From Cliona cf. orientalis (taxonomy: Eukaryota > Porifera > Demospongiae > Clionaida > Clionaidae): a DNA stretch of 64,000 nt. The stretch spans positions 4,957,000 to 5,020,999 of the forward strand of contig OZ005691.1 of assembly GCA_963930775.1 (NCBI GenBank), given 5' to 3'. Below, in pieces: positions 21,593-52,083 of the stretch; within the stretch, counting starts at the first letter, position 1; every line of letters begins with the position of its first letter. The position numbers were made by a program, and so were the translations under genes. Below the pieces are notes generated by a model. It made no database searches, had not been told where the DNA came from, and saw only the letters and a program-made list of their open reading frames with translations.

Positions 21593-23800
21593 TCACTGAA
21601 TAGGAAACATCTTCATTTCCTTAAATTTCTTCAGTAATACTGGAGCAATGGGTGGGGCGAGGATAAATATGATGAATAATACCAAGAGTACATTTAGCAG
21701 CGAAAAGATGGTGAAGAACTCAGCATGTGGATCGGGATGCTGAATTACAAACACAAGTAGGTAATAGATTCCAAATCCTATTACCAAAACCACAGAGATG
21801 GCATAAGTGAAAATTCTTTGTGAATTGGTGGTGAATGTAGCAATTGGTATCTTCCTGGTGAGCACTGTAAGCACAATCAGTGCCACTAGCAAGGCCGCCT
21901 TGAACAGAAACACCAGTACAAGCCACACCAGATTGTAGGTGCAATCTTGATCGAGAAATATTTCATAGTGTGAATCTATCTTCAACATGACCTCCATATA
22001 TATGGATTTCATAGGGTCAACAGCTGTCCAGATAACAGCTATTGCAATGTCAATGGAAGTGAGCAACAAAACAGCTAAAATCAAGGCTGGATTAGACAAG
22101 AACTTTCCAGGATCTAGATAATGCATGAATATGCGATAGAGGCGCCATGTTCTCACGGTGACAAGTCCCACCGTTAGGGTGAAGCTGAGGGGCAGCCCCC
22201 AAGCCCATATTGTCTGACAGATTGGTGCGTCAATTTCTGGCCCAAAGTCAGTTACCCAATCAATGCTCATTAACATGATTGTAGCAATGAAGATATAACT
22301 CCCAATGAATGCCATGTTGATCAGTTTGGGACTTGTAGCTTTTACGCTTTGAGTATTTCTGTATACAATGGTCATGGAGTGCAGAAAAATGATTACAAAA
22401 AGCTCTATAAGCTGTACAACTACAACAAAGGCTACAACCCCTCTGTGAGGTGATGCAATGTTTTGAATTTGATCTGAAATAATCTGATTGAAAGATGGGT
22501 GTATAAATTTAATTGAGGATGAATTCAAGGAACCAACATTTATTTCTCTTCCACTGCTTATCTGATAGAGGTAGACCGGGCGGTTAGCAAACCCAGTGCT
22601 TGAATTAAAGCTGATTTGACCAGTTACACCTTTGAGTGAAAGTTTAAAAAATTGTTTGATGATCATTTCTACCAAGGAATTATTTGCATACATAAATTCA
22701 GTATCGGGATAGGCCTCTGTCAGACTGTGAAGTACACTCACCCATGCATACAGAGCATCATAAAAACTATAAAATAGGTATGACCCAGCTCTCTCAGTCC
22801 TTATTACTTCTTCATACAAACTCGTTTGATTGTCAGTAAAATAACGAAAGCTAATAAGAAACATATTCTCAACAGTTTCAATAAGGTTTCCACCAGTGCA
22901 TGTATAAGGTTGGTTATTGTAGCTAAAAATGAAGCTGTGTTCTGATGAAATCATAATGTCAGACAGTATGTGGGTGAGAATGACCCACTGATAGGCTGGA
23001 TACACAAGTCCCACGTGATAAGCGAGGCATAACATTCTCTTTGTGTGCTCAAGAGAGGAAAGAATAAACACGATTCGAACTCTGCTGCTTTTTATTTCAT
23101 TAAATGGATAGAAGTAGCTGTACAGTGGAGATACTACAGCGGCAGTCACTCCATTCTGTGTTAATCTGTTCAAAAAGGAGCTCTTTATCTCACGATAGTA
23201 TTGGTGACTGCTCTCATACAAAACGTGAACATTATGCCAACCATTCTTTTTTATGAGAGCTAGTGAAAGGTCAATCAGTGATATAGGTGAGCCCAAAATT
23301 CCTATGGAATTATCATAATTCTCAAGCATCTGATTCCCCCCATTATGAACGACGACTAGCCGCACTTCAGGCCTACTGGCTAACTTCACAGCTTCAATTG
23401 CAGAAACAGAGCATCCTGTACCTAATATACCTACCACTTTGCTTCTGTCTTGAGGAAACAGCCCGCTGACTAAGCTCTCCAGGAATCTTTCATCACAGCC
23501 TCCTTTCCTGTATACCAGCTCCAGTTCATAGCATGGCAACAGATGTGGATCTTCATTGATTCTCTCAAGAAGGAGGTCAAGTGTTGATGACAGAAGGTCC
23601 ACCATATCTTGGTCCCAGCTTGGACCTAGCAATGGAGACGAGAGTATGTCACCATGTGGCAGTACTGTTAGTAATTTGAGGGTTTTCTTCGTTGCATTCT
23701 CAGTGTGGCAGCTGTTGTTGATGATTGCTGATGCAGAGAGGTGTTGAGGTGGATGCACACAAAAACAGAGCAATGCGAGCAGTACGGAATAACCATACAT
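21593..23800 (-). CDS. Class C (GABA-B-like) GPCR, copy 2, intact
   Basis: An intronless 735-residue frame. A signal peptide (about 1-24) precedes a bilobed ANF/periplasmic-binding-type ligand domain (about 37-400; the GTGCSVSAIEAVKLAS element parallels GPGCS of GABA-B and ANF receptors). There is no class C cysteine-rich domain, which fits GABA-B-type receptors. Seven helices lie at about 453-475, 492-512, 527-550, 569-592, 621-643, 659-682 and 694-718. The conserved extracellular Cys pair is present (PICQ before TM3, QDCTYN before TM5). The first intracellular loop has SVKATSPKLIN, like GABA-B2 KMSSP-type loops. The tail is only about 17 residues with no coiled coil, so GABA-B-style heterodimerisation through the tail is not expected. 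The ligand is unknown. A TATAAAAG box lies about 45 bp upstream of the ATG. Confidence 0.9.
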   Translation of the reverse strand: MYGYSVLLALLCFCVHPPQHLSASAIINNSCHTENATKKTLKLLTVLPHGDILSSPLLGPSWDQDMVDLLSSTLDLLLERINEDPHLLPCYELELVYRKGGCDERFLESLVSGLFPQDRSKVVGILGTGCSVSAIEAVKLASRPEVRLVVVHNGGNQMLENYDNSIGILGSPISLIDLSLALIKKNGWHNVHVLYESSHQYYREIKSSFLNRLTQNGVTAAVVSPLYSYFYPFNEIKSSRVRIVFILSSLEHTKRMLCLAYHVGLVYPAYQWVILTHILSDIMISSEHSFIFSYNNQPYTCTGGNLIETVENMFLISFRYFTDNQTSLYEEVIRTERAGSYLFYSFYDALYAWVSVLHSLTEAYPDTEFMYANNSLVEMIIKQFFKLSLKGVTGQISFNSSTGFANRPVYLYQISSGREINVGSLNSSSIKFIHPSFNQIISDQIQNIASPHRGVVAFVVVVQLIELFVIIFLHSMTIVYRNTQSVKATSPKLINMAFIGSYIFIATIMLMSIDWVTDFGPEIDAPICQTIWAWGLPLSFTLTVGLVTVRTWRLYRIFMHYLDPGKFLSNPALILAVLLLTSIDIAIAVIWTAVDPMKSIYMEVMLKIDSHYEIFLDQDCTYNLVWLVLVFLFKAALLVALIVLTVLTRKIPIATFTTNSQRIFTYAISVVLVIGFGIYYLLVFVIQHPDPHAEFFTIFSLLNVLLVLFIIFILAPPIAPVLLKKFKEMKMFPIQ

Positions 23801-23844
23801 TATTCATTACCTACCAGTGTGTACGTACGTGCTTTATTCTATAG

Positions 23845-23852
23845 CTTTTATA
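23845..23852 (-). promoter_or_regulatory. TATA box of GPCR copy 2
   Basis: The complement reads TATAAAAG, about 45-52 bp before the minus-strand ATG at 23800. The 2.16-kb element begins 4 bp upstream of it. The position is conserved in copies 1, 3, 5 and 6. Confidence 0.6.
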
Positions 23853-24305
23853 TTACCGTACCCTCGCGAGCGGTGCATCATACATTGGGCCAAGATTGGG
23901 GGATGGGCCCATATTCGAGGTATCAGTATCGCGTTTATACACGAAAGAGCGCCCAGGTATATAAGTCACCCACGCTATCTTGAATAGCAGCAGCGTCTAT
24001 TATTGATTTCAGCCTTATTCAAGCACGGTTACCAATCCAGAGCAAGGGCGTCCGCGATACTTCACTGTGTATCGTTGACTGCAGCCGTATTAAGTGGGCG
24101 TGGCTACGATCGCTAGCCGTTTATTTGTGCTGAAACGTGGCATAAAGCTAGCTAGACTTAGTTTTACGGCTGTTTAGCACGTTACTTATCAATATCTTAC
24201 ATAGACTATTCGAAGTTCAGTCCTCATATTATTATTATTCACTGTGTCTACCGTACCGGCACCGGTACCCAAGATTTAGTGCTTGGAGTACCGGCAACTA
24301 TATTA

Positions 24306-29041: not shown

Positions 29042-31209
29042 CTAAATATGTAATACTGGAGCAATGGGTGGGGCGAGGATAAGTATGACGAATAATACCA
29101 ACAGTACATTTAGCAGTGAAAAGATGGTGAAGAACTCAGAATGTGGATCGGGATGCTGAATTACAAACACAAATAGGTAATAGATTCCAAATCCTATCAC
29201 CGAAACCACAGAGAAAGCATAAGTGAAAATTCTTTGTGAATTGGTGGTGAATGTCTTCCTGGTGAGCACTGTAAGCACAATCAGTGCTACTAGCAAGGCC
29301 GCCTTGAACAGAAACACCAGCACAAGCCACACCAGATTGTAGGCACAATCTGGATCAAGAAATATTTCATAGTGTGAATCAATCTTCAACATGACCTCCA
29401 TGTATGTGAATTTCATAGGGTCAACAGTTGTCCAGATAACAGCTATTGCAATGTCAATGGAAGTAAAGCAACAAAACAGCTAAAATCAAGGCTGGATTAG
29501 ATAAGAATTTTCCAGGATCTAGATAATGCATGAATATGCGTTAGAGGCCCCATGTTCTCACGGTGACAAGTCCCACTGTTAGCGTGAAGCTAAGAGGCAG
29601 TCCCCAGGCCCATATTATCTGACAGATTGGTGCGTCAATTTCTGGTCCAAAGTCAGTTGACCAACCAATATTCAATAACATGATTTTAGCAATAAAGACA
29701 TAACTCCCAATGAACGACATGGTGATCAGTTTAGGACTTGTAGCCTTCACACTTTGAGTATTTCTGTATACAGCGGTCATGATGTGTAGAAATATGACTA
29801 TAAAAAGTTCTATCAGCTGTATAACTACAACAAAGGCTACAATCCCTCTGTGAGGTAGTGCAGGCTTTAGAATTTGATCTGAGATATGATCGAAAGATGG
29901 GTATGTAAATGTAATTGAGGATAAATTCAAGGAACCAGCATTAACTTATCTTCCACTGCTTATCTGATAGAGGTAGACCGGACGGTTAGCAAACCTAGTG
30001 CTTGAATTAAAGCTGATTCGACCAGTTATACCTTTGAGTGAAAGTTTATAAAATTGTTTGATGATCATTTCTACCAAGAAATTGTTTGCATACATGAATT
30101 CATTATTGGGATAGACCTCTGTCAGACTGTGAAGTACACTCACCCATGCATAAAGAGCATCATAAAAACTATAAAATAGGTATGACCCAGCTTTCTCAGT
30201 ATTGTTGTTCCATCTTATTTCTTCATACAAACTCGTTGATTGATAGCAAAGGAATGGAAGCTAATAATTAAGAAACGTTTTCTCAACAGCTTCAATAAGG
30301 TTTCCACCAGTGCATGAATAAGAGTGGTTATTGTGGCTGAAAGTGAAGCTGTGTTCTGATGATTCAGAAGTCATAATATCAGACAGTGTGTGGGTGAGAA
30401 TGACCCACTGATAGGCTGGATACACGAGTCCCACGTGATAAGCGAGGCATAACATTCTCATTGTGTGCTCAAGAGAGGAAAGAAGAAACACTTTTCGAAC
30501 TCTAGTGCTTCTTATTTCACTTAATGGATAGACTACGTACAGCGGCAGTCACTCCATTCTGTGTTATAGTCTGTTCAAAAAGGAGCTCTTCATCTCACGA
30601 TAGTATTGATGACCGCTCTCATACAAAACATGCACATTATGCCAGTCATTCTTTTTTATAAGAGCTAGTGAAAGGTCAATCAATGATATAGGTGAGCCCA
30701 AAATTCCTATGGAATTATCATGATTCTCAAGCATCTGACTCCCCCATTATGAACGACGACTAGCCGCACTTCAGGCCTACTGGCTAACTTCACAGCTTCA
30801 ATAGCAGAAACAGAACATCCTGTACCTAATATACCTACCACTTTGCTTCTGTCTTGAGGAAACAGCCCGCTGACTAAGCTCTCCAGAAAGGCTTTCATCA
30901 CAGCCTCCTTTCCTGTATACCAGCTCCAGTTCATAGCATGGCAACAGATGTGGATCTTCATTGATTCTCTCAACAAGTAGATCTAGTGTTGATGACAGAA
31001 GGTCCACCATATATATCTTGGTCCCAGCTTGGACCTAGCAATGGAGACGAGAATATGTTACCATGTGGCAGTATTGTTAGTAATTTGAGGGTTTTCTTCG
31101 TTGCCTTCTCAGTGCAGCTGCTGTTGATGAATGCTGATGCTGCAGAGAGGTGGTGAGGTAGATGCACACAAAAATAGAGCAATGCGAGCAGTACTGAATA
31201 ACCACACAT
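29042..31209 (-). pseudogene. Class C GPCR-like gene, copy 3, frameshifted
   Basis: All family segments are present from the ATG at 31209 to the TM7 region, but split over at least six frames: 30970-31209 (signal), 30798-31010, 30707-30976, 30261-30491, 29946-30230, 29541-29930 (TM1-3) and 29042-29416 (TM5-7). There is a deletion near 30530 and another around 29235, and the C-terminal tail is cut (ends APVLHI). It is closest to intact copy 5 (CGYSV start, YPNNEF, HRG). Its promoter is separated from the conserved upstream module by the 10-kb transposon. Confidence 0.9.
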
Positions 31210-31254
31210 TATTCATTTAGCTACCGGTATGTACATACGTGCATTATTTTATAG

Positions 31255-31262
31255 TTTTTATA
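31255..31262 (-). promoter_or_regulatory. TATA box of GPCR copy 3, at the transposon edge
   Basis: The complement reads TATAAAAA; the 10.14-kb transposon starts at 31264, one base beyond it. Same spacing to the ATG as in copies 2 and 5. Confidence 0.5.
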
Positions 31263-31263
31263 T

Positions 31264-31309
31264 TGGGCTATTCCAGTTAATAAGGATACACCCCCATGGA
31301 AGAACACTA
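31264..31309 (+). repeat. Left 46-bp TIR of the 10-kb transposon
   Basis: Starts TGGGCTATTCCAGTTAATA, continues with 'aggatacacccccatggaag' and ends 'aacacta'. It matches the complement of 41358-41403 with a single G/A difference. Confidence 0.95.
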
Positions 31310-31480
31310 ATTAGTCTTCAGGGGTTTTTTTGGGAGAATCTAATTACTGTCTTCATGTGCTAAAATAATATTAATAAACTGTCTTCGTGGGGTAAAATCG
31401 GAGATTAATAAGCTGTCTTCATGGGCTAAAATCAGATTAATATTGTTTTATGTGTATCTTAAATTTTTAATTATTCGTCT
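31310..31480 (+). repeat. Left subterminal repeats
   Basis: Three to four diverged units around 'ctgtcttcatgggctaaaat', each followed by 'attaataa'-type sequence, about 45 bp apart. Similar units occur inside the right end. Subterminal repeats are often transposase-binding sites. Confidence 0.7.
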
Positions 31481-32218
31481 GATGGGTAAAAATCTAACCA
31501 TGGCCAAAAGGAGAGAGCGGGGATCAAATCTCCCAATTATATTATTCTGAAAGTTGATCGACATACTCATCATTTTTGACCAAACCCTAAATTAATACAT
31601 TATTAGCTAACTCTGATGCTATAATATCATAGTACTGCCACTGTGACACGTCCACTAAAATTAATTAAATCGGGCATGGTCCCATCTATGTTAAAATAAA
31701 AAAGGATTTAATCTGCAGCTGTCCCAAGGGTGACACCATCCGGAAATCAGAGTCTACTACTATTGAATAGAGGCATCCCACTCATCAATATTCTTGCCAC
31801 CCATAGCTCATTAACCACACTGTACCAGGACTTGGAAGTTGCACTCTTCCATTGTCATTCTATAGGCTCATAAATTAATATTAATTATCCTTTGTTTGTG
31901 ACTTTGGCAAGCCTTTTGTAACTACGACTAGGTTTAGGCACTGGACTGGAGCTGTGAAGAATATAGCCACCAGCGAACAAAAAGCAAGAAATGAAGATTC
32001 AAAGAAACGACAAAAGAAACAAAATTGTACCATAATAATATCCTCTAGCTCTGCTTGCTCTGTGGTGACGCAAGATTAATAGTTATTACAGCAGATAAAT
32101 TATTGTCAATATCATTATAATTAAGCAGGGGAATCAACAGTGAAGTTCAATCATAACCAATGTAACTACAGTATAAGCCTCTGTCTGAGTCTTTCTCAAA
32201 AGAACTGATAGTTAGTAG

Positions 32219-32953
32219 CTAGTTTGCTAACTGTGCTTCTTCTCTCATAATACTCACCAACTGCTGCATCTCTGTATCAGAGAGCTGAATGGGGGACTCT
32301 GCTCGCATTATCTCATGAATCTCCCTGTTTGACAGATCAAGATCTGACCTACGCCTCTGTATAGCTTTGTTGAGGGCATCTTGGGCTTTTCTCAACTCAG
32401 TAAGTTCCTTATCAAGATCATCTTCAAGTTTACATATGTCTACTGTGTCGCTACCACCCATTTCTGAATACAACCTTGTGACTGCAGCAGAGGCTATAAG
32501 CATTCGATCGGTGTTTCTGGTGATCGGTGTAAGCATATGCTTTTGAGTAGCTTCATCGGAATAAATTAATTTCATGTCTTCACCCATTTCTTCTGCTTGT
32601 AACTTGAGCAGGTCTGTTTTATGCAGGGTCCAAGAAAGGTGAATGGCTCCCTGAATGGCTGCTTTGTTCTTAAGTTTGCACCTGGTGACAGAATCAGAGC
32701 AAAGCTCAAGTGCCTTTTCATTCCAGAACTTTCTAAATGATTGTTGAAGACCCTGAGCACTGCTTACTTCGGTTGAAGTATACATGTGAATACCATAACT
32801 TTCAGGAGTAGTAACTGCTGTATAACTGTGCTTGTGTACTTCATCAGAAGAAGAAGATGGCTTAAAGAATTTAAATATGGTTGTCTGTGCACCACAAGCC
32901 CTTTTGTTGCCAACTTTGTCCTCCACATTCTTGCAGGCTTTTCTTTTGGACAT
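32219..32953 (-). CDS. Transposon-borne 244-aa protein with PIP box and coiled coil
   Basis: Single-exon minus-strand frame with ATG at 32953. The N-terminus is basic (MSKRKAC..NKRAC, a likely nuclear signal). Residues 23-30 read QTTIFKFF, a perfect PCNA-interacting peptide (Q-x-x-I-x-x-F-F) followed by KP. The middle (about 70-170) is not recognised. Residues 173-240 are rich in heptad-like Leu/Glu/Lys and likely form a coiled coil (KLEDDLDKELTELRKAQDAL). It lies inside the 10-kb transposon, divergent from the OTU gene with 169 bp between start codons, suggesting co-expression. A role in steering the element to replication or repair foci through PCNA is inference. No enzymatic motif is seen. 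Confidence 0.8.
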   Translation of the reverse strand: MSKRKACKNVEDKVGNKRACGAQTTIFKFFKPSSSSDEVHKHSYTAVTTPESYGIHMYTSTEVSSAQGLQQSFRKFWNEKALELCSDSVTRCKLKNKAAIQGAIHLSWTLHKTDLLKLQAEEMGEDMKLIYSDEATQKHMLTPITRNTDRMLIASAAVTRLYSEMGGSDTVDICKLEDDLDKELTELRKAQDALNKAIQRRRSDLDLSNREIHEIMRAESPIQLSDTEMQQLVSIMREEAQLAN

Positions 32954-33122
32954 CTTGCAATTGGCCCAAGATTTTTTATCAAAAATTAATCAGCTATCCC
33001 CAAGTCTAATTCATGCACGCCTGTGAAAATTTAATTTCAGTGCCACCATGTGATTTAGCACATGATCACTTGGCAGTTGCTGATATAGCTATACAGTGTA
33101 ACTCCATGCTTCCTAATTCAAC
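32954..33122. promoter_or_regulatory. Divergent promoter region of the transposon genes
   Basis: 169 bp between the ATG of the minus PIP-box gene (32953) and the first ATG of the plus OTU gene (33123). It contains 'ttttttatcaaaaattaatc' and 'tgatatagctatacagtg' but no certain TATA box. Assignment rests on gene layout only. Confidence 0.45.
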
Positions 33123-36100
33123 ATGGCTTGTGGTGCAGGTATGCATATCTAGTTAAGCTAGTATTGATCTGTATGCATGCATGTGTATCTATTCAATGAC
33201 ATTATGATTGTATTATGTTCATTGTGTAGCTATAGAAAGTGATCGAATCAATTTTTTTGAATCCACTCTAAAATCTCTTCGTGAAGCAGCTACTAAAGAT
33301 TATGAAACTCTTAACGCTTCCTGTGTCAGCGTATACGATGATATGCGTCAAGTGTATCCTGATATCCCCTTCTTGAGTAATGCAAATGGACTGGTGAATA
33401 TGCAATTTCATGCTTATTCTAAGTCACTACTACCATGTGATTTCAAGCACCTCATCCCACTTTTCTGCAATGCAGATGGAAACTGCTTATATAGGTACGT
33501 ATGAGTGCAACACATTGTAAGAGTGTGGAGGCACAATTGTTGACTGAGATGTGTGATGGAGAGATTGCTGGTGTGTTTCTTTAGAAATGTTAGTAGCTAT
33601 CAGAGCTACATACAACATTGTGATACTGGTATACGGTTTAAATACATGTGTATTATACTAGACTGTTATGCTTCACATGGTATTATTACAGTGACCACAA
33701 GAATAATTATTGTGACAGTTTTATTATTTTCCAAAAGCCTGTCCTTGTGGTACATGATAGTCAATCTATGGTAGGGTGCATCCCTTCCCCCTCCCCTGTT
33801 TCCATGGACCAAAATTTTGACAATGTTTAAAAAATTTCTGTCTCTTATTCTTTAGAGTCCATGCACCTACATAATTAGCTGGGGCTGTGTGTGTTTAAGA
33901 TATCTTCTTTTTTCAGCATAACGAAGGCCCAAGGCAAACTCACATGTCAAAGTCATGCTATAAATCTCATGGTCCCCACCCAGCCTACCCCCCACAGTTA
34001 TAAAGTGTCCTGCTACCGTTTATTATTCTCATGAAATGTGGCTAGCTGATTTAATATCCTTCTGAGGTGCATGCAGAGGAAAGAGGCCCGGTTTGGGGGG
34101 GGGGGGGGGGGGGGGGCCCTTCTTGATAGTGCACACCATACATCATATGTTATATCTATTTGTGTAGGCCTACCAATACAATTTTAGATGACTGCATGGT
34201 TGTAGTCCTTGAAATCGTTGACCAATACACACCAAATAATATGCTGACCACCTGACTCCTCAGTTTCCATATCAGAGTAGGCTACATGACTTGCATACAT
34301 GTATCTGAGCCAGAAAGTGTGTAGTGCAGCTGACTGATATTATAGTGTTCCTGTTAAAACCACCAACGCCTCCAACACATAAACCCGTACTCAGAGGTCA
34401 CACTACACTAGTTAGTGTAGTGTGATTACAACCTGTTAACCACTGCACATGCACACCATACACAAATAATAGTTATCTGTCAGACTCTACTGTACTTGGT
34501 TGCTTAGTAACTTACAACAAATAATTATACAGAGTGTCTTGTGTCTGCACAACAATGATTGTATGCATGTGTGTATATATGAGTTGTGTGTACATGTTCT
34601 GTTCAGCTGCATGTTGTGTGTGCGTGTGAGTGTGTGTATGGTGTAGAATATGAATGTATCAGTGTGAGAGTATGTGTGTGTGGTGTATGTGTGTACATAA
34701 TAGTTATCTGACAATAATAACTTGGAGTGCATGAGATGCATGGTCAAATGCACCCCAATCATTCATTGTCAGATAACTATTAATTCTTGTTAGTAGTTGA
34801 CCTCTGTTCATCATTGGCCTACTTTATGATGACCCATCCCCTTCCCATAGCCAGCAAATTGCCTATAAATTTTTTTTGCTAGGCAACTACCAGCAAATAA
34901 TAATGTGTGTGTATGGTGTGTGTGTATTTGCTTGTGTGTGCTTTTTATTGGATACCACCGTTATAGCCTAATATTTATGGCATGCTAAGCTGCATGTATA
35001 TAGTTGCATGCAAGCCAGGAGCTGTTGTGATCATAATATCTATAACATCGGAAGTATTAAATTTTTGATTGTGACAATCCTTCCTGAATATAGGGCTGTG
35101 TCAATACTATGTTGTGGACAGGAAGAAATGCACGTAGAATTCCGTGTCAGAACTTTATGCGAATTAGTCCTAAATGAAAACTCTTACCTGCACCCTTCTA
35201 TTGTGTCACATCTTTGTCCGGATGGAATTGAAACTAGCAAAAATGCTTTAGTTGCTACTTCAGCTAACTTTAGTAGAGCTGTAGGCAAGTTTGCTACAGA
35301 TGTAGCTCAAACCGTTCTTCGATATGACTGCATAGACACAACCAAGCTTGGTCAGTATTCAAACATGTGGCATATTCACGGGTTGGCATCAGCACTTGGC
35401 CGGCCTATATTATCACTATATCCTGAAACTAATGATAGGATTAGACCCTTGCTACACAAGCAAATTAATCCCAGAATTCCAATGGATGCTGAACATCAAC
35501 TGCCATTGATAATTTTTTGGACTAGAACTCAACCCATGGTACAAGGAAGTAAATCATGGAGTCCAAATCACTTTGTACCCTGTTATGATCCGATAGAGGT
35601 CAAGGTGTCAGATGCCAATAGCATTCCCTTATACCATAAAGGTCACTTTCGACGCTATTCCAAATATGTAAATAAACCTCCTCATCCTGGCAATGTAGAA
35701 CATAACTTGAATGCAGATCCTGCAGATGTTTGTATGCCTACCACATGCACAGTGGTAAGCTCTCCAGCCTCAGACTCTACTGTAACAACACTTTCATGTA
35801 CCCCTGTCAGTGATCCATGCTTGTTTTCTACACAAAAAGCAGAAACAAACTTAGCCTCTGGGAGGAGCAGCCCTATGTGCAAATTGTTGACAGAACATCA
35901 TGTTACGACACCCGAGTCACAAAACAATCAGTTTTACTATCAAATGTCAAGGGCAGATGCAAATCCAAGTCACAGCACAAGCATGGTGATAAGCTCTCCA
36001 GCCTCAGAGTCTATAACACTTCCATATACCCCTATCAATGATTCAAATACATCTTCCAATGAGTCTTTGGAGTCACCGAAAGCAGACAAAAACCCAATCT

Positions 36101-37413
36101 CTACTAGTACCATATTTAATATTTTAAATAAAGTACAGGATACCCAACTTCCTATAGGAAAACGAAAGCCAAAGCGACCTTCCACGTCAGAATCATGCAC
36201 ACTTTTGAAGTATGCTAACATATCCAATGTCCAATCCAATCCTAGAGTGTCCGAAAAGATTGTCACACCAGCGAGTACACAAAATTCCAAGAAAAAAGCG
36301 AAAAAAAGGAAAAAAAGGCAAGCCTGCTTCAACCCAGGATCAAGTATACGAACATATGTAACATCTATGCCTTCCAGTGCTCTCTCAGTCGTTTCCATAG
36401 CTAATGCTAATGCAAATTTGCTTGGTTCCACGCTCAAGAAAGGTATCACATCAGAAGATGTGGTCACTCAAGGATCAATAAAATCCAATTCTGTTTCTCA
36501 TAGTGCCAGTACATGTACAGTGTTGCCAGATCCTGTTGCTATTTCTTGTGAGCATGGTTACCGTATTGAATCACAAGTGTCTTCAGTTATGGTAACAGAC
36601 CATTCTAGTGAGCACACACGTCATGATACTGGTGCTTTTCAGTCAGAGGTGTCTTCAGTGGACCTTTCATGCATGGATACACAGTTCTCAACATCAATAG
36701 CATCACCTAAGGATGAGACTTCCAAAGATGTCACTTCTGTAAAAGCACTATTTAATTTATTGGATAGTGGATTAATTACAGCCTCCAAACAAAAAAGGAG
36801 GCACGTGCTTGGCAAAGCAGCATCACAAGCATCTATCACTGATTGGTTAGATAAGTCATGTAATGATACTTTGAATAATGACCTTTCAAATACTCAGGAA
36901 CTTATTTCACCAAGTGAAGATATACTGAAACGAGACACGTCGATTTATGATTTTCCTGATGCAGATTTATCTCAAGTATCACATACCACCCTAGCACCAG
37001 ATTTCTGTCCCAGCAATTGTGAGTTTCCAGTCTTTCATGATACTCCTTCATATAACTACAGTTTGACAGTGGATATTCCAAGCACCAGTGATGATGACTA
37101 TTTCTCAGAAACTGACTTGAGTGGATTATCACCAGAGGATGATCATTTCTGTCTCAAGATAGAGACAGATTCAAGTGGTGATGACATGGATTATGATCAA
37201 TGTGATGATGTGTACACACATGACATTGTGGAACTTGTAAATGAAAAATCAAGTCCATTGCCTTTTCCCAATTTATCATCTCAATGGTATGAACGACAGA
37301 ATAAGCTGGCTACGAAAAATATCACTAGAAGAAAGGGAAGAGAGTCAACTTCCTTCAATAGTACACAAACAATTTCAACTTCATTAATCGTAGTCAAGTT
37401 CAGGGAACTCTGA
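33123..37413 (+). CDS. Transposon protein with vertnin-like OTU cysteine-protease domain and NLS
   Basis: Three exons with matching phases: 33123-33138, 33230-33494, 35094-37413, giving 866 residues. About 35-260 form an OTU-type domain: D88-G-N-C91-LYR is the canonical nucleophile motif, WHIHGLASALGRPI and YPETNDRIRP follow, and H253 in NHFVPC is the candidate catalytic His. This order matches the N-terminal domain of vertebrate vertnin, which from memory has lost the DGNC Cys. The rest is Ser/Thr-rich and disordered with an internal repeat (SSPAS..S..T...TP) and a basic NLS near 492-503 (KKKAKKRKKRQ). Residues 672-679 read QASITDWL, which resembles a PIP degron imperfectly. OTU domains cleave ubiquitin-like conjugates; its role in transposition is unknown. 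The long second intron (33495-35093) holds poly-G and GT repeats. It may continue into the next ORF. Confidence 0.8.
33495..35093 (+). other. Second intron of the OTU gene
   Basis: Donor 'ag|gtacgt' at 33495 and acceptor 'gaatatag' ending 35093. Splicing restores LYR-AVSILCCG across the OTU motif. It contains a poly-G run (34097-34116), a GTGT-rich stretch (34560-34700) and 'atagttatctgacaataata' words in both orientations near 34467, 34699 and 34766 (a likely small MITE). Confidence 0.75.
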
Positions 37414-37445
37414 AAAAGAATCTAGAATCTCTGAATTCCAGGGCA

Positions 37446-40400
37446 ATGTCTCAAGAAAAAGAAAAGCAGCATTTAGAAGCAATCATTGAAGTAGGGAATT
37501 TTATTCTATCAAATGGTCCAGTTGTCAAAACACAGGAAGCAGGTAATTTGTATATACAACAAAAGGGTCTTGTAGCAAAGAAACCATCAATGGAGTACTA
37601 TGAACTATTCTGTAAATATCTCAATCTAGTCCAGCTATACATGTTTGGAACAGCATACCTAATGGAAAATTTGGAACATATTGAGTCAATTGTAAACTCT
37701 CTGAGTAGTGTCATCGATGAAGAAACAGTTGCAAAACAACTAGTGCAGGATCGTCTACAGAGTATTTTCTCCCCGTCACTGAAATACATGGACACGCACA
37801 GAGATAGACAGGTTGTCAAGGGATTGATGGTAGAGCTAACAAACATATCGTTTGTTGCAAAACTCCAGAATATACAAAGCAGGAAAGGTACAAGAAATGC
37901 AAATAACACTCTTCTTCCTAATCTTGAACATTATGATGGTATAAGAAAAACTTCCCAGATTGTCAGAAATGACCTGACTAATGTACAGCAATATAAATTG
38001 ATGGAAAGAATCATCTCGTCAAGAAAGCTGAAGGAAATTAGAACTATCAGTGAAGGAAGAGGAAGAAAATTAAAATCCCAAGAATATCCAGAACTAGCTG
38101 CAGTACTCTCTTATGCTTTTGGTGAGCACGATACAAAAGAATATAGCGGTGGAGGACTTGAAGCTCATCCTCGTCTCACCACGGGAACCCTATACAGAGC
38201 TTCAGACAATGCAACAACAATGAAGAAAGCTAGGGAATTTTTACTTTCTCTTGCACCAGATGGGTTTTCCATTTCTCTTAGTTCTTGTTTTAATTATACT
38301 CAGAATTTTCGACAAAACAGTAGACAGGCCAAACAGCATCATTCCGGGAGGGGGATTAATGCTCCCCTATCATTGAAGAAGCCACCTCGAACTGGTGTAC
38401 AGCAACTGGTTATCAATCTGCACTGGTCTACAGCCAATGTTAATCTATTAATTGATAATGCACATGATAAACCAGAGTGTGTTACAATTTCCAAAGATGC
38501 CAAGGCGATTGTATCCTGTGATATAGCACCCGTGCAGAGGCCAGGACCTTCTTGGAAAAAGCGTTTGGTACTGCCTGATCACACGTGGGATCAATCCCGG
38601 ATCAATGCGATTACTCCAATGACATTTTTGTTCCTACAGACAGAAGTTAGACAGACACCAGCAAGCACGGTGGAGCATTTAGATCTCCAAATGTCCAATA
38701 CAACTACACTCCATCTGACTCGTACAGGGCAGGGTGTGACATTATTGAACTTATCCTTCTATGAACCTGAGACAACCTTCAGATCTCTCAATGAAGTCCT
38801 ATTTCTTTTAACATTTTCAGCTTTAGATGCTTTTTTTCGGGATAAGACCACAGGGCGCCTTCGACAACAGTTTATATTTGTAGTAGACAACGGTCCAGCT
38901 GAGCAGCCAAGCTGCTCCCTAGTGCAAATGTGTTTGTGTAGACTGATGAAGCTCTTAAATTTAACTAAAATTATTCAGACATCATTCGCTGAATATCATT
39001 CAAAAAGAAACTTTGTTGAGCGTGTTCACTCAGAGGAAAACCGTGTACTCTCAAGCCATGGACCATTTAATAGTAAGTCCATTCACCAACATGCAAAACC
39101 AGGGACAGATGAGCATATGGAGAATATGGAAGCTGTGGCTGAAGACGTTAGAAAGTGTCTAGTTCAAGCTTCATTTGGAGGTAGACACTTAATGTGTTAC
39201 AGAGGTGTAAAGCCTGACGATTATGTCTTCAGTGATGAAGAGCAGTTGCAAAGCTTTCTATCGCTATCAGAAGATGGCAAGCAACACTACTCCCCAGCAG
39301 CATACTCTGTAAACAAAGGAGAGGTATTGCACTCTCTGCACATGTTTTGGGATGTAAATGAGGACTTCAGCTCTGAGTACATTAAGGATCACCAAACCAT
39401 ACAAAATGAATTGCTTGATGGAATTAGAACCTCATGGTTGGATAAGTACACGACTTGTCTGTACACAACAGAGATGGAAAGGGAGTGCAGGAGGTTTGAG
39501 CTTCAACCTCTGCCTGATTATCTAAGATGGTTTAAAACCGGCGAACTCCATTACCTTCCATTAGAGGAAAGAGCGCTAGTTCTTGGACCATGGGATGAAA
39601 TCCCAGGTGCATTCCTGCCCACTAAAGTTCTAGACTTATGTCTTTCAGTCATTCAAGAACCTCCAGAGAGTATCATAAAGCAAATGGCCCTTTTATCATG
39701 GGTAACACAGACTGAAGTCACTAATTACATCAAGAAAGTTCAAGCCCAAATAGAAGCTCAATTAGAAGCTGAGTTGGAGAAAATGAGATGGAGAACACAC
39801 CCTTTATATAAAAGTAAAACCAAAGCACAGCTAGAGGCTGAATGCAAACAGCTGAAGATTCCTGTCACATCAAACCTTGCGAAACATCAATTGACAACAT
39901 TGATTGTGAAGAAGAAAGGTGAGCTGCCACCACCAGAACTTTCACATAAAGAGCTATACAGCGGAGCTCTGCCTGATATACCAACCAGTATTGCAGCCAT
40001 TAATCGCCTCACTATCCCAGTGTTGAGAGCCATACTTAAACATCACAAGATACCAAATATTGGTATAAAAGAAAATTTAGTCATGAGAGTATTCCTCTTG
40101 CGACACAACAGAACTGTTGGTATCACATCAAGAGAAGAGAAGCAAATTAAAGATTTAATCAATTTAGTGTACAAAGTGATACTAGAGCAGCGGAAACTTC
40201 ATGTAACATCCCATGTTTATAGGAAGAGAACCTATACATTGCAATCCAATAATTCCAAGTTTATCGCAATACCAAGCAATGTAGTTGTAGAAGATGATTT
40301 ACATAAATCTCTATTTGAACCGCTGCTCACTTGGTTGGAGTCTTTAAGTAGGGCTCGTAAGCAGCAAGATGATACAGCTGTGTTCAGACCACGTTCTTGT

Positions 40401-40673
40401 GCAGTTAGGAAGCTTGATACATCAGCAGAGGAAGATACCTTAGCTGAAAGTGTCAAACAAACTGGTTCAAAAATCAAACTCTTATGGTCAGCAGAAGAAG
40501 TTGGTGATTCTGGATGGAGACCAGGATGGTATCCAGCTACGGTGCAGAAGTACTGTGAGGAAACAGATATCCTAACTGTCGTTTACTTACTAGAGCCTGG
40601 AATCTGTTATGAGGAGGAACTGTCTCCATTGATCACTAATAAGAAGATAAAACTGGAGTGGGCTGCTCTTTAA
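37446..40673 (+). CDS. Integrase-like DDE transposase with SAP motifs and Tudor-like C-terminus
   Basis: 1075 residues from the ATG at 37446; the frame is open back to 37362. A conserved region at about 210-360 (GGGLEAHPRLTTGTLYRASD, then SLAPDGFSISLSS) precedes an RNase H-like core: D359 (IVSCDIAP), D481 (FVVDNGP) and E525 (KRNFVERVH), the D/D/E order of transposases and integrases. Residues 792-824 (TKAQLEAECKQLKIPV) and 855-889 (LTIPVLRAILKHHKIP) resemble SAP DNA-binding motifs. Residues 1008-1063 (SGWRPGWYPATVQKYCEE) look like a Tudor/chromo-type barrel. No zinc finger is obvious. It is the best candidate for the enzyme that moves the 10-kb element. The family recurs as uncharacterised proteins in sponges and cnidarians as far as I recall. 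The frame appears intact, so the element may be recent. Confidence 0.8.
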   Translation: MSQEKEKQHLEAIIEVGNFILSNGPVVKTQEAGNLYIQQKGLVAKKPSMEYYELFCKYLNLVQLYMFGTAYLMENLEHIESIVNSLSSVIDEETVAKQLVQDRLQSIFSPSLKYMDTHRDRQVVKGLMVELTNISFVAKLQNIQSRKGTRNANNTLLPNLEHYDGIRKTSQIVRNDLTNVQQYKLMERIISSRKLKEIRTISEGRGRKLKSQEYPELAAVLSYAFGEHDTKEYSGGGLEAHPRLTTGTLYRASDNATTMKKAREFLLSLAPDGFSISLSSCFNYTQNFRQNSRQAKQHHSGRGINAPLSLKKPPRTGVQQLVINLHWSTANVNLLIDNAHDKPECVTISKDAKAIVSCDIAPVQRPGPSWKKRLVLPDHTWDQSRINAITPMTFLFLQTEVRQTPASTVEHLDLQMSNTTTLHLTRTGQGVTLLNLSFYEPETTFRSLNEVLFLLTFSALDAFFRDKTTGRLRQQFIFVVDNGPAEQPSCSLVQMCLCRLMKLLNLTKIIQTSFAEYHSKRNFVERVHSEENRVLSSHGPFNSKSIHQHAKPGTDEHMENMEAVAEDVRKCLVQASFGGRHLMCYRGVKPDDYVFSDEEQLQSFLSLSEDGKQHYSPAAYSVNKGEVLHSLHMFWDVNEDFSSEYIKDHQTIQNELLDGIRTSWLDKYTTCLYTTEMERECRRFELQPLPDYLRWFKTGELHYLPLEERALVLGPWDEIPGAFLPTKVLDLCLSVIQEPPESIIKQMALLSWVTQTEVTNYIKKVQAQIEAQLEAELEKMRWRTHPLYKSKTKAQLEAECKQLKIPVTSNLAKHQLTTLIVKKKGELPPPELSHKELYSGALPDIPTSIAAINRLTIPVLRAILKHHKIPNIGIKENLVMRVFLLRHNRTVGITSREEKQIKDLINLVYKVILEQRKLHVTSHVYRKRTYTLQSNNSKFIAIPSNVVVEDDLHKSLFEPLLTWLESLSRARKQQDDTAVFRPRSCAVRKLDTSAEEDTLAESVKQTGSKIKLLWSAEEVGDSGWRPGWYPATVQKYCEETDILTVVYLLEPGICYEEELSPLITNKKIKLEWAAL

Positions 40674-41069
40674 TCAGAATGGCAGCATGCATGCTAATCA
40701 CTGTATTTTTATTTGTATGTATATAAATTCACAGTGACAGTGTGTCTAGTCACAGTAGGACATTAATATTACAAGCAAAACCTGATTATACACAGATTGT
40801 GAACTATAATACATGATTATGATTACATTTGATGTGTTTTTTTTTTAATTATAAAATACCCCTTTGATCTTTACTGCTCTTAAATTGTTTAGTTTGCTTG
40901 AGTATAATAATAAGGTATACCTATCAAAATTTATCTCAAATTTCCACCTTAAGTTTACCATTTAATTTGAAAGAGTACATTAGTCCGGTACCAGTGTATA
41001 TTTATAATATTGTGTTTTGGGGGGCTGGGGGGGGGAGGAGGGGGGATGGGGGTGGGGGGGGGGGGCAGC
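40674..41069. other. 3' untranslated part of the transposon, with G-rich run
   Basis: AT-rich non-coding sequence after the DDE gene, ending in a 45-bp G-rich stretch (41019-41066). No further gene. Confidence 0.6.
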
Positions 41070-41347
41070 GTGAAGTGATTTTAATTAAGTTGTCATCAGG
41101 GTAAATGTATACCCATAATTAGTCCAGAGGGTGCCCGGTGTACTCATAATGATGTCTTGGGGGTTGAATAACTTCAATCAAATTGTCATCAGGGTAAATG
41201 CACTCATTATTAGTCCGGAAGGTACTCGGTATATTCATAATGATGTCTTGGGGGGGTGAAGTGACTTTAATTAGGATGTCATGAGGGTAAATGTATCCGT
41301 AAATTAGTCTTGAGGGTATTTTGGTAGTTTTAATTATTGTCATGGGG
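41070..41347 (+). repeat. Right subterminal repeats, about 105-bp period
   Basis: About 2.5 tandem units with 'ttgtcatcagggtaaatg', 'taattagtccagagggt' and 'cataatgatgtcttgggg'. The core GTC(A/T)TCAxGGG(C)TAAA resembles the left subterminal unit in the same orientation. Confidence 0.75.
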
Positions 41348-41357
41348 GGAAACGTGA

Positions 41358-41403
41358 TAGTGTTCTTCCATGGGGGTGTATCTTTATTAACTGGAATAGC
41401 CCA
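41358..41403 (-). repeat. Right 46-bp TIR of the 10-kb transposon
   Basis: Ends 'ttattaactggaatagccca'. The base after it (41404) begins the GPCR upstream module. Confidence 0.95.
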
Positions 41404-41640
41404 TTATGAAGGGCCAGTAAGATACTAACGCGTGCAAGCATGCGCTAATGGAAGTGTCAGATGAGCATGCGCATTAAGTTTTACGCGGATGGTAACGATC
41501 CTGTACCATTTTGCGTTGGTTACTTTTGACCGCCATTGGACCCTGCTTGTAGGAGAAGGAGGAGAGCCTAGGCCTGAGAGAGAAGATTAAGCGGAGAGAA
41601 ATTGAAGAGATCAGTGAGAAAATGTGATAAGCGTCAATTA
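41404..41640 (-). repeat. Conserved upstream module of GPCR copy 3, displaced by the transposon
   Basis: Reads 'gggccagtaagatactaacg', 'gagcatgcgcattaag', 'acgcggatggtaacgatcc', 'ccattggaccctgcttg', 'gaggagagcctaggcctgag', as in the other copies. It is now 10.2 kb from the copy 3 start codon. Confidence 0.8.
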
Positions 41641-43097: not shown

Positions 43098-45299
43098 TCA
43101 CTGACTCAGAGTAGGTAAAATTTTAACTTTGATTTTCTTCAGTAACGTTGGAGCAATGGGTGGGGCGACGATAAATACGATGAACAATACTACTAGTACA
43201 TTTAATAGCAATGTAAAGAGGGTGAAGAACTCAGCATGTGGATCGGGATGCTGAATTGTAAACAAAAGTAGGTAATAGATTCCAAATCCTATCACCAAAA
43301 CCACAGAGAAAGTATACGTAAAAAATTCTTAGCAAATTGGTGGTGAATGTAGCAATTGGTATCTTCCTGGTGAGCACTATAAGCACAATCAGTGCCACTA
43401 GCAAGGCCGCCTTGAACAGAAACACCAGCACAAGCCACACCAGATTGTAGGTGCAATCTGGATCAAGAAATATTTCATAGTGTGAATCAATCTTCAACAT
43501 GACCTCCTTGTACATGAATTCCATAGGGTCAACAGCTGTCCAGATAATAGCTATTGCAATGTCAATAGAAGCAAGCAATAAAACAGCTAAAATCAAGGCT
43601 GGATTAGATAAGAACTTGCCGGGATCTAGATAGTGCAGGAATATGCGATAGAGGCGCCATGTTCTCACGGTAACAATTCCCACTATTAGGGTGAAGCTGA
43701 GAGGCAGTCCCCAGGCCCATATTATCTGACAGATTGGTGCGTCAATTTCTGGCCCAAAGTCAGTTGCCCAACCAATGTTCAATAACATGATTGTAGCAAT
43801 GAAGACATAACCTCCAAGGAATGCCATGTGGATCAATTTGGGACTTGTAGCTTTTACACTTTGAGTATTTCTGTATACAATGGTCATGGTGTGCAGAAAA
43901 ATGATTACAAAAAGCTCTACAAGCTGTACAACTACAAAAAAGATTATGACCCCTCCATGAGGTAATGCAATGTTTTGAATTTGATCTGAGATATTATGAT
44001 TGAAAGATGGGTGTGTAAATTTAATTGAGGATAAATTCAAGGAACCAGCATTAACTTCTCTTCCACTGCTTATCTGATAGAGGTAGACCGGACGGTTAGC
44101 ACTGAATTAAAGCTGATTTGACCCGTTACACCTTTAAATGAGAGTTTAAAAAATTGTTCAATGATCATTTCTACCAAGGAATTGTTTGCATACATGAATT
44201 CAGTATCGGGGTAGGCCTCTGTCAGACTGTGAAGTACACTCACCCATGCATATAGAGCATCATAAAAACTATAAAATAGGTATGATTCAGCTTTCTCAGT
44301 ATTGTTGTTCCATCTTACTTCCTTATGCAAACTCGTTTGATTGTCAGTAAAATAAATAAGAAACATTTTCTCAACAGCTTCAATAAGGTTTCCACCAGTA
44401 CATGTATAAGGTTGGTTATTGTAGCTGAAAGTGAAGCTGTGTTCTGATGAAATCATAATGTCAGACAGTGTGTGGGTGAGAATGACCCACTGATAGGCTG
44501 GATACACTAGTCCCATTTGATAAGCAAGGCATAACATTCTCTTTGTGTGCTCAAGAGAGGAAAGCACAAACACTATTCGAACTCTACTGCTTCTTATTTG
44601 ACTAAATGGATAGAAGAAGCTGTACAGTGGAGATACTACAGCGGCAGTCACTCCATTCTGTGTTAATCTGTTCAAAAAGGAGCTCTTCATCTCACGATAG
44701 TATTGGTGACCGCTCTCGTACAAAACATGCACATTATGCCAGTCATTCTTTTTGATAAGAGCTAGTGAAAGGTCAATCAATGATATAGGTGAGCCCAAAA
44801 TTCCTATGGAATTATCATGATTCTCAAGCATCTGACTCCCCCCATTATGAACGACGACCAGCCGCACTTCAGGCCTACTGGCTAACTTCACAGCTTCAAT
44901 AGCAGAAACAGAGCATCCTGTACCTAATATACCTACCACTTTGCTTCTGTCTTGAGGAAACAGCCCGCTGACTAAGCTCTCCAGGAATCTTTCATCACAG
45001 CCTCCTTTCCTGTATACCAGCTCCAGTTCATAGCATGGCAACAGATGTGGATCTTCATTGATTCTCTCAACAAGTAGGTCAAGTATTGATGACAGATGGT
45101 CCACCATATCTTGGTCCCAGCTTGGACCTAGCAATGGAGACGAGAGTATGTCACTATGTGGCAGTATTGTTAGCAATTTGAGGGTTTTCTTCATTGCATT
45201 CTCAGTGCAGCTGCTGTTGATGATTGCTGATGCAGAGAGATAGTGAGGTAGATGCACACAAAAACAGAGCAATGCGAGCAGTACGGAATAACGATACAT
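43098..45299 (-). pseudogene. Class C GPCR-like gene, copy 4, two frameshifts
   Basis: ATG at 45299. The ligand domain is open for 409 codons (44070-45299) until a 10-bp deletion near 44100 within the 'ggttagcaaacccagtgctt' region. The 7-TM part continues in another frame at 43231-44040. A 1-bp insertion near 43325 ('gtaaaaaattctt') shifts frame in TM6, and 43098-43304 encodes the rest of TM6-7 and the tail (KVKILPTLSQ). It lacks the TATAAAA box: the stretch between 'ctatag' and 'taacgcatg' (45345-45352) is deleted, as in copy 7. With only two lesions it is the least decayed broken copy, so sequencing error or allelic state should be excluded. Confidence 0.85.
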
Positions 45300-45349
45300 G
45301 ATTCATTTAGCTACCAGTGTGTATGTACGTACGTGCTTTACTCTATAGA

Positions 45350-45549
45350 TTAACGCATGCAGCCTGAGCATGCGCATTAACTTTTACGCGGACAACCTTT
45401 ACCATTTGCGTATTGGCACAAGTTTTAATATCGTCGACTCTTTCACCACCATTGGACCCTGCCTGTATATAGGAGGAGGAGAGCCTAGGCCTGAGAGAGA
45501 AGGATTAAGGGAGAAATTATTAAATTAACTAGATCATGACTCAAGTGCT
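45350..45549 (-). repeat. Conserved upstream module of GPCR copy 4
   Basis: 'acgcatgcagcctgagcatg', 'acgcggac', 'gtattggcacaagttttaat' (empty TTAA site at 45425-45428), 'ccattggaccctgcctg', then 'gatcatgactcaagtgct'. It matches copy 7 most closely. Confidence 0.8.
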
Positions 45550-49805: not shown

Positions 49806-52028
49806 TCACTGCAGGTGGCGTTCACAATTTATCTTTATTCCTTTAAATTTCTTTAGTAATACTGGAGCAATGGGTGGGGCGAGGATAAGTATGACGAATA
49901 ATACCAACAGTACATTTAGCAGTGAAAAGATGGTGAAGAACTCAGCATGTGGATCGGGATGCTGAATTACAAACACAAGTAGGTAATAGATTCCAAATCC
50001 TATCACCGAAACCACGGAGAAAGCATAAGTGAAAATTCTTTGTGAATTGGTGGTGAATGTTGTAATAGGTATCTTCCTGGTGAGCACTGTAAGCACAATC
50101 AGTGCTACTAGCAAGGCCGCCTTGAACAGAAACACCAGCACAAGCCACACCAGATTGTAGGCGCAATCTGGATCAAGAAATATTTCATAGTGTGAATCAA
50201 TCTTCAACATGACCTCCATGTATATGAATTTCATAGGGTCAACAGCTGTCCAGATAACAGCTATTACAATGTCCATGGAAGTAAGCAACAAAACAGCTAA
50301 AATCAAGGCTGGATTAGATAAGAATTTTCCAGGATCTAGATAATGCATGAATATGCGATAGAGGCGCCATGTTCTCACAGTGACAAGTCCCACTGTTAGG
50401 GTGAAGCTGAGAGGCAGTCCCCAGGCCCATATTATCTGACAGATTGGTGCTTCAATTTCTGGTCCAAAGTCAGTTGACCAACCAATATTCAATAACATGA
50501 TTGTAGCAATGAAGACATAACTCCCAGTGAACGCCATGTTGATCAGTTTAGGACTTGTAGCCTTCACACTTTGAGTATTTCTGTATACAATGGTCATGAC
50601 GTGTAGAAAAATGACTATAAAAAGTTCTATCAGCTGTACAACTACAACAAAGGCTACAACCCCTCTGTGAGGTAGTGCAGGCTTTAGAATTTGATCTGAA
50701 ATATGATCGAAAGATGGGTATGTAAACGTAATTGAGGATAAATTCAAGGAACCAGCATTAACTTCTCTTCCACTGCTTATCTGATAGAGGTAGACCGGGC
50801 GGTTAGCAAACCCAGTGCTTGAATTAAAGCTGATTTGACCAGTTACACCTTTGAGTGAAAGTTTAAAAAATTGTTTGATGATCATTTCTACCAAGGAATT
50901 GTTTGCATACATGAATTCGTTATTGGGATAGACCTCTGTCAGACTGTGAAGTACACTCACCCATGCATAAAGAGCATCATAAAAACTATAAAATAGGAAT
51001 GACCCAGCTTTCTCAGTATTGTTGTTCCATCTTATTTCTTCATACAAACTCGTTTGATTGATAGCAAAGGAATGAAAGCTAATAAGAAACGTTTTCTCAA
51101 CAGCTTCAATAAGGTTTCCACCAGTGCATGTATAAGGTAATTGGTTATTGTAGCTGAAAATGAAGCTGTGTTCTGATGAAATCATAATATCAGACAGTGT
51201 GTGGGTGAGAATGACCCACTGATAGGCTGGATACACAAATCCCATGTGATAAGCGAGGCATAACATTCTCTTTGTGTGCTCAAGAGAGGAAAGAAGAAAC
51301 ACTATTCGAACTCTACTGCTTCTTATTTCTCTTAATGGATAGAAGAAGCTGTACAGTGGAGATACTACAGCGGTAGTCACTCCATTCTGTGTTAGTCTGT
51401 TCAGAAACAAGCTCTTCATCTCACGATAGTATTGGTGACCGCTCTCATACAAAACATGCACATTATGCCAGTCATTCTTTTTTATAAGAGCTAGTGAAAT
51501 GTCAATCAATGATATAGGTGAGCCCAAAATTCCTATGGAATTATCATGATTCTCAAGCATCTGACTCCCCCCATTATGAACGACGACTAACCGCACTTCA
51601 GGCCTACTGGCTAACTTCACAGCTTCAATAGCAGAAACAGAGCATCCTGTACCTAATATACCTACCACTTTGCTTCTGTCTTGAGGAAACAGCCCGCTGA
51701 CTAAGCTCTCCAGGAATCTTTCATCACAGCCTCCTTTCCTGTATACCAGCTCCAGTTCATAGCATGGCAACAGATATGGATCTTCATTGATTCTCTCAAC
51801 AAGGAGGTCAAGTGTTGATGACAGAAGGTCCACCATATCTTGGTCCCAGCTTGGACCTAGCAATGGAGACGAGAATATGTCACCATGTGGCAGTATTGTT
51901 AGTAATTTGAGGATTTTCTTCGTCGCATTCTCAGTGCAGCTGCTGTTGGTGATTGCTGATGCAGAGAGATAGTGAGGTTGATGCACACAAAAACAGAGCA
52001 ATGCGAGCAGTACTGAATAATCACACAT
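49806..52028 (-). CDS. Class C (GABA-B-like) GPCR, copy 5, intact
   Basis: An intronless 740-residue frame from the ATG at 52028. It has the same design as the intact gene at 21593-23800: signal peptide (CDYSVLLALLCFCV), ligand-binding domain with GTGCSVSAIEAVKLAS and RLVVVHNGGSQ, no cysteine-rich linker, seven helices, and Cys residues in PICQ and PDCAYN. The tail (KKFKGIKINCERHLQ) differs from copy 2. It differs from that gene by substitutions spread over the ligand domain (YLLPC, HSFAINQ, YPNNEF), so ligand preference may differ; this is inference. It is closest to broken copy 3, with which it shares 3' flanks. A TATAAAA box lies about 46-52 bp upstream. Confidence 0.9.
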   Translation of the reverse strand: MCDYSVLLALLCFCVHQPHYLSASAITNSSCTENATKKILKLLTILPHGDIFSSPLLGPSWDQDMVDLLSSTLDLLVERINEDPYLLPCYELELVYRKGGCDERFLESLVSGLFPQDRSKVVGILGTGCSVSAIEAVKLASRPEVRLVVVHNGGSQMLENHDNSIGILGSPISLIDISLALIKKNDWHNVHVLYESGHQYYREMKSLFLNRLTQNGVTTAVVSPLYSFFYPLREIRSSRVRIVFLLSSLEHTKRMLCLAYHMGFVYPAYQWVILTHTLSDIMISSEHSFIFSYNNQLPYTCTGGNLIEAVEKTFLISFHSFAINQTSLYEEIRWNNNTEKAGSFLFYSFYDALYAWVSVLHSLTEVYPNNEFMYANNSLVEMIIKQFFKLSLKGVTGQISFNSSTGFANRPVYLYQISSGREVNAGSLNLSSITFTYPSFDHISDQILKPALPHRGVVAFVVVVQLIELFIVIFLHVMTIVYRNTQSVKATSPKLINMAFTGSYVFIATIMLLNIGWSTDFGPEIEAPICQIIWAWGLPLSFTLTVGLVTVRTWRLYRIFMHYLDPGKFLSNPALILAVLLLTSMDIVIAVIWTAVDPMKFIYMEVMLKIDSHYEIFLDPDCAYNLVWLVLVFLFKAALLVALIVLTVLTRKIPITTFTTNSQRIFTYAFSVVSVIGFGIYYLLVFVIQHPDPHAEFFTIFSLLNVLLVLFVILILAPPIAPVLLKKFKGIKINCERHLQ

Positions 52029-52080: not shown

Positions 52081-52083
52081 TTA

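Follow-up and report, generated by a model that had tools for sequence, protein, structure and literature searches.

An OTU-bearing DDE transposon of a probably distinct animal family in the sponge Cliona cf. orientalis

Introduction

What kind of mobile element occupies about 10 kb in the genome of the sponge Cliona cf. orientalis, and does it belong to any group that already has a name? The question is raised by a stretch of 64,000 nucleotides (contig OZ005691.1 of assembly GCA_963930775.1, positions 4,957,000 to 5,020,999, forward strand), hereafter the window, whose own numbering is used below. An original prediction, made from the sequence alone, placed in it a possibly undescribed DNA transposon with an OTU protease, a DDE/SAP/Tudor transposase and a PCNA-binding accessory protein. 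The window copy is real: it is a mobile element of 10 kb belonging to a family of DNA transposons, and its borders are exact. The features of a DDE transposon with terminal inverted repeats (TIRs) were found, namely TIRs with fixed borders in many copies, a target-site duplication (TSD) with corresponding empty sites, and an RNase-H fold with a DDE triad. We consider it probable that the element represents a distinct animal family, which encodes an OTU-DDE-SAP-Tudor-like protein together with a partner carrying a PCNA-interacting-protein (PIP) box, and that it moves by the mechanism proposed below.

Borders and insertion site

The element spans 31265-41402 and is bracketed by two copies of ATT.

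31262-31264, no strand: left TSD, ATT (flank and empty-site comparison)
31265-31309, plus strand: left TIR, 45 bp, beginning GGGCTATTCCAGTTAATA (self-alignment)
31346-31432, plus strand: left subterminal repeats, three copies of 21 nt (self-alignment)
41070-41296, plus strand: right subterminal repeats, three copies of 41 nt at a spacing of 93 bp (self-alignment)
41358-41402, minus strand: right TIR, 45 bp (self-alignment)
41403-41405, no strand: right TSD, ATT (flank and empty-site comparison)

The inverted ends start GGGCTATTCC and differ from each other by a single mismatch; the aligned arms (31257-31309 and 41358-41410, 53 nt) are 94% complementary. They had been described as 46-bp repeats with one mismatch, of which the mismatch stands and the length does not, because the outer T/A, which is part of the target duplication, had been counted in. 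The subterminal repeats claimed at the same time are present at both ends of the element. Within the window, the 19-base end is matched twice, against 0.03 matches expected by chance (up to three mismatches).

Empty sites had been predicted in paralogous flanks, and two exist in the window, at 56008-56523 and 51791-52117, where the joined flanks align across the junction. Both read ...TTTTATATT and then continue into the right flank, with a single ATT where the filled site has two. The left 1-kb flank has six further matches in the window (89.7-91.7%), all of which, except the one near 60.1 kb, were aligned across the junction; besides the two empty sites, the sequence near 9.99 and 23.85 kb diverges at the junction, and near 45.35 kb a deletion spans it. 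Across the genome, 17 two-ended copies were compared, 10 of them fetched as ends and seven, among them the window copy, taken from other loci. In 15 of these the two 3-bp flanks match each other, and they are then always AAT or ATT (AWT). The pattern used to find the copies prescribed a T before and an A after the ends, so that of the six flank bases two carry no independent evidence; the evidence of the empty sites does not rest on that pattern. Insertion at AWT is precise and produces a 3-bp duplication.

The surroundings of the insertion contain a tandem array of class C G-protein-coupled receptor (GPCR) paralogs, 90-92% identical to 30264-31264. A frame of 740 residues on the minus strand (49806-52028) matches 7tm_3 and ANF_receptor. 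The element lies about 55 bp upstream of a possible start codon of a GPCR paralog, whose own frame is fragmented.

8976-9999, 22855-23854, 30264-31264, 44352-45351, 51083-52082, 55293-56300 and 60148-61123: stretches of the GPCR array

Copies across the host genome

The original prediction had proposed searching the genome for the ends and recovering full copies. In 216.8 Mb (149 contigs), the 19-base end has 349 forward and 368 reverse matches, 717 in total with at most two mismatches, while the reversed pattern used as a control has 0 and 2; two-ended copies with the same borders were recovered. Among the 100 of these 717 ends listed, 22 neighbouring pairs lie within 25 kb of each other, 21 in inverted-repeat orientation and one not, and the inverted pairs span 4.8-22.6 kb with a median of 5.8 kb. 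The genome also holds at least 48 pieces matching the transposase (best other identity 62%), at least 12 matching the OTU part and at least six matching the accessory protein, the copy itself being included in each count.

Two of the other copies, one of 11,458 bp (C15) and one of 9,450 bp (C1:26.28 Mb), are bounded by two ends with a matching TSD, and in each the three coding parts follow one another as in the window; both also contain stops or frame changes. The copy at C1:21.19 Mb, with 22.6 kb between its ends and matching AAT flanks, has all three parts by position, and the locus at C1:23.52 Mb combines the three parts with a left end, no right end appearing within the 10 kb examined. At the other extreme, a 4.8-kb copy (L006/L007) is conserved over 155 bp at one end (86%) and over 345 bp at the other (81%), and one copy measures 271 bp. 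The contrast between 717 ends and at least 48 pieces of transposase makes it likely that many copies are gene-poor, non-autonomous derivatives, and the ends that they share suggest that they are moved in trans.

One OTU-transposase gene

The element has two divergent genes, one for an OTU-linker-DDE-SAP-Tudor-like protein and one for a small QxxIxxFF protein. The exons of the larger gene were predicted purely from splice signals.

33123-33138, plus strand: predicted exon 1 of the OTU-transposase gene
33230-33494, plus strand: predicted exon 2, with the OTU Cys codon (DGNC) at 33484-33486
35094-37413 (35094-37410 in the splice-signal prediction), plus strand: exon 3, first part, remaining OTU domain and long linker
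35569-35571, plus strand: His codon of the NHF motif, in exon 3
37362-40673, plus strand: exon 3, second part, in a different frame, transposase of 1075 aa with ATG at 37446

Three long, apparently intact open reading frames had been reported for this copy. Two of them, OTU and transposase, belong to a single gene that is split here by a frame change located within 37362-37413. This one-gene model is adopted because the two parts are collinear in the frame of the C15 copy and form one protein in several relatives. The C15 frame, open over 1428 residues, runs from what remains of the OTU domain through the linker into the first part of the transposase; it aligns to the OTU frame of the window (residues 28-193 and 694-790) and then, at 62.9% over 461 columns, onward to the transposase frame. 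Of 155 collected proteins, a set that includes 10 accessory-protein matches, 11 contain motifs of both the DGNC and the NHF type. The OTU motifs lie upstream of the DNGP core motif in eight of these 11, the other three (P0066, P0067 and P0134) having no DNGP string. Many entries for other relatives, being predicted frames, may lack upstream exons. In the window copy the transposase part is unbroken, has all three core residues and is accompanied by matching ends; it could start at the ATG at 37446.

The OTU domain first recognized by its DGNC...H pattern also reaches the profile threshold, marginally: the spliced window protein scores 23.8 bits against a PF02338 cut-off of 23.3, and both the DGNC and the NHF motifs are present. 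Such motifs make the domain resemble a ubiquitin-removing enzyme and suggest a deubiquitinating activity.

Other sequences were noted beside this gene. In the C15 copy, a unit of about 87 bp is repeated in tandem within the linker frame (L048:6795-7001). Three OTU-like matches of 29-32% identity (C117:66072, 287545 and 322307; L039, L041 and L042) lie on a small contig with long frames of up to 2426 residues and no transposase match among the genome matches, perhaps part of another OTU-bearing element. G-rich runs occur within the window copy at 34095-34117, in the OTU intron, and at 41020-41070, near the right end.

Catalytic core and C-terminal domains

38496-38498, plus strand: first catalytic Asp, D351 (D in 77 of 77 aligned)
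38886-38888, plus strand: second catalytic Asp, D481 (D in 75 of 77, with one N and one gap)
39018-39020, plus strand: catalytic Glu, E525 (E in 77 of 77 aligned)
39999-40088, plus strand: SAP domain, residues 852-881 (26.6 bits, cut-off 23.9)
40428-40670, plus strand: Tudor-like C-terminal domain, residues 995-1075 (predicted structure)

The triad is spaced D-129-D-43-E in a core with an RNase-H fold. The three domain assignments made from the letters have all gained support: the D/D/E core from residue conservation and fold, the SAP domain from its Pfam score, and the Tudor domain from a predicted structure that is Tudor-like. The nearest structure to the core is Mos1, with which retroviral integrases are effectively tied, scoring within 1 Z unit; the fold therefore does not choose a superfamily, and the absence of a family from these comparison lists does not exclude it. 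A sequence search of the PDB with the transposase alone gave nothing meaningful, and a search with the family profile gave weak matches only, among them the SAP protein Tho1 at E 0.27.

Relatives and naming

Transposase relatives in the protein database number 130 at E<=0.001 by sequence search and 192 by profile search, 120 being listed in each case. Three alignments drew 76 (A1), 37 (A2) and 53 (A3) proteins from the 120 listed, those left out being mainly of lower coverage; P0119, which has hAT-type domains and looks like a chimeric gene model, was kept out. Relatives whose source is named include proteins of corals, a hydrozoan and a mussel, among them Paramuricea clavata, Desmophyllum pertusum, Clytia hemisphaerica and Mytilus galloprovincialis. 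The Mytilus protein, of 886 aa, shows 39% identity across 906 aligned columns, and its SKDNPAERPH aligns with SKRNFVERVH of the window, the Glu being retained. Bacterial/archaeal and viral collections gave pattern matches (1, 20 and 48 stretches), none confirmed as a relative. A further entry, P0138, is labelled Vertnin by its source and carries OTU motifs and the transposase core; an IS3/IS911-like helix-turn-helix has been reported in vertnin (PMC3024977). Vertebrate VRTN might thus be a candidate for descent from an element of this kind.

We treat the element as a member of a distinct animal DNA-transposon family, possibly a superfamily, for which no name was found among the groups checked. 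The original prediction had left the element outside the named superfamilies; this holds in that no checked group fits, and "unnamed" is provisional because the family was set apart by published descriptions and Pfam, a comparison that did not cover Repbase itself. It is possible, though we lean against it, that Repbase already contains the family under a name absent from the literature searched. Repeat libraries may include it, given that relatives occur in animals already under study (Clytia, Paramuricea, Desmophyllum and Mytilus); no such element appeared among the papers listed by the literature search, which did not extend to Repbase. If the family is indeed unnamed, the hundreds of ends counted in the sponge genome currently rank as unclassified repeats, as do the relatives beyond it.

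The accessory protein

32219-32953, minus strand: accessory gene, 244 aa
32864-32887, minus strand: QTTIFKFF, PIP-like box, accessory residues 23-30

Sequences of the QxxIxxFF type are PIP boxes, which bind PCNA. The box first noticed in the window protein is kept, as Q-x-x-[ILMV]-x-x-[FY]-F near the N-terminus, in 10 of 13 aligned rows (six genome loci and seven database proteins). The exceptions are L032, with QTTLFKYC, P0130 (E 5e-4), which has no box, and L033, whose N-terminus was not recovered. PCNA binding by the accessory protein is likely, judging from this motif. Separately, the N-terminal extension of the distant relative P0130 looks ubiquitin-like by eye, and no Pfam model scores over its cut-off in that protein.

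The small gene might instead be a captured passenger, outside the transposition machinery, which we regard as rather unlikely. In favour of a passenger, the transposase has 130 matches in the database and the accessory protein 10, of which one is the window protein itself. Against it, the gene is divergent to the transposase not only in the window but also in C15 and at C1:21.19, 23.52, 26.28 and 26.73 Mb, and the PIP-like box is kept in rows that are about 40% identical.

Proposed mechanism

The DDE transposase would recognize the GGGCTATTCC ends, probably jointly with the subterminal repeats, and cut the element out; reinsertion would follow at AWT with a 3-bp stagger, the product of which is seen at the filled sites. 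The order of the protein in relatives is OTU peptidase, linker, helical N-region, RNase-H core, SAP and Tudor-like domain. The helical N-region may bind DNA, and the SAP and Tudor-like domains could keep the complex on DNA and chromatin. The OTU peptidase might take ubiquitin off the transposase itself, or off chromatin or repair proteins at the break. OTU and Ulp1 domains occur in unrelated transposons, where a role has only been suggested (PMC2836005). The divergently encoded PIP-box protein would probably dock the machinery on PCNA and so couple transposition or repair to replication, and gene-less copies would be mobilized in trans.

Several observations pull the other way. Besides the pattern-fixed flank bases mentioned above, two of the 17 two-ended copies (L061/L062 and L073/L074) lack a matching TSD. 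The long gene of the window copy is split, with OTU and transposase in different frames, and OTU profile matches appear in four of 15 relatives scanned, none reaching the cut-off. With few database matches, the accessory protein may be lineage-limited. PIP-like motifs had also been suspected in the OTU-DDE linker; the idea was dropped for want of enrichment, since 19 linkers from 131 sequences (the rest having no anchor or no 150-residue linker) contained 0 strict motifs where 0.13 were expected and four loose ones where 1.24 were expected.

A bolder proposal, which we consider unlikely as a whole, is that the family is an unnamed superfamily in which the PIP-box partner brings a transposase-fused deubiquitinase to PCNA, there editing ubiquitin at the fork, for example on PCNA. 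If true, ubiquitin editing at replication forks would time insertion or steer the repair of the element's own breaks. With an OTU domain joined to the transposase in several relatives and a likely PCNA-binding box kept in a separate gene, a connection of transposition with ubiquitin and replication becomes open to direct test.

Comparison with known transposons

Pfam holds models for many transposase groups. The Pfam and structure searches suggested for the transposase found the RNase-H fold; of the 32 Pfam families matched by 38 members at E<=1, 25 were listed, and no transposase model, PF07592 included, is among those 25. The classes considered were those of Repbase as given in PMC4455052, and the features compared were taken from PMC10045372, PMC2836005, PMC12730594 and PMC7386202. 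Academ, Sola, Kolobok, Dada, Novosib, EnSpm, hAT, MuDR, P, Merlin, piggyBac and Transib were compared by Pfam scans only, a Pfam model for each not being assured. None of Ginger1, IS3EU, KDZ, Zator, Tc1/mariner and Harbinger agreed in every feature tested, and among the described groups compared there is none in which a 3-bp AWT duplication and GGGC ends occur together with such a protein.

The element could be a very diverged member of IS630-Tc1-mariner, most likely Zator/ISAzo13, that gained OTU, SAP and Tudor-like domains; we judge this improbable. Zator/ISAzo13 also makes 3-bp TSDs (PMC10045372), and the RNase-H DDE core has its best fold match in the mariner branch, with retroviral integrases within 1 Z unit of it. 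The comparison with Zator, made on the TSD and the PF07592 model, sets the sponge family apart by the missing PF07592 match in the lists, by its OTU, SAP and Tudor-like domains, and by its AWT target and GGGCTATTCC ends. A genome search with PF07592 matched one place, C1:21248860 (27.8 bits), which is none of the family's loci. That match (C1:21248860-21249183) lies in a 724-residue frame with one stop and is possibly a true Zator element. Tc1/mariner elements duplicate TA (PMC10045372, PMC7386202), unlike the 3-bp AWT here.

An integrase-like element of the Ginger1 or IS3EU type is very improbable: Ginger1 also carries an OTU domain, but the 3-bp AWT TSD and the GGGC ends contradict this reading, the OTU here is N-terminal, and no integrase model is among the Pfam matches listed. 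Ginger1 shares with the sponge family a DDE enzyme joined to an OTU peptidase in an animal TIR element, and differs in its 4-bp CCGG/CCGT TSD, TGTNR ends, C-terminal OTU and Gypsy-type integrase core with a zinc finger (PMC2836005). IS3EU/GingerRoot elements usually have 6-bp TSDs and TA..TA ends (PMC10045372), in contrast to the 3-bp TSD and GGGC ends found here. Zisupton, known from fish and fungi, is likewise a TIR-bearing DNA transposon (PMC12730594, PMC4455052), whereas KDZ/Zisupton TSDs measure 7 or 8 bp (PMC12730594). The TSD of the sponge element is 3 bp long.

PIF/Harbinger elements (PHIS) use a TWA target and have GGG-type ends. The sponge family resembles them in its GGG-type ends and departs from them in using AWT and in having no Harbinger DDE model among the Pfam matches listed. 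A 3-bp TSD is a further likeness, being that of canonical Harbinger (PMC12730594). Finally, OTU domains are also encoded by OTU-bearing Helitrons of animals (PMC2836005); Helitrons are elements with an HUH nuclease and a helicase (PMC12730594), whereas the sponge element is of the TIR/DDE type.

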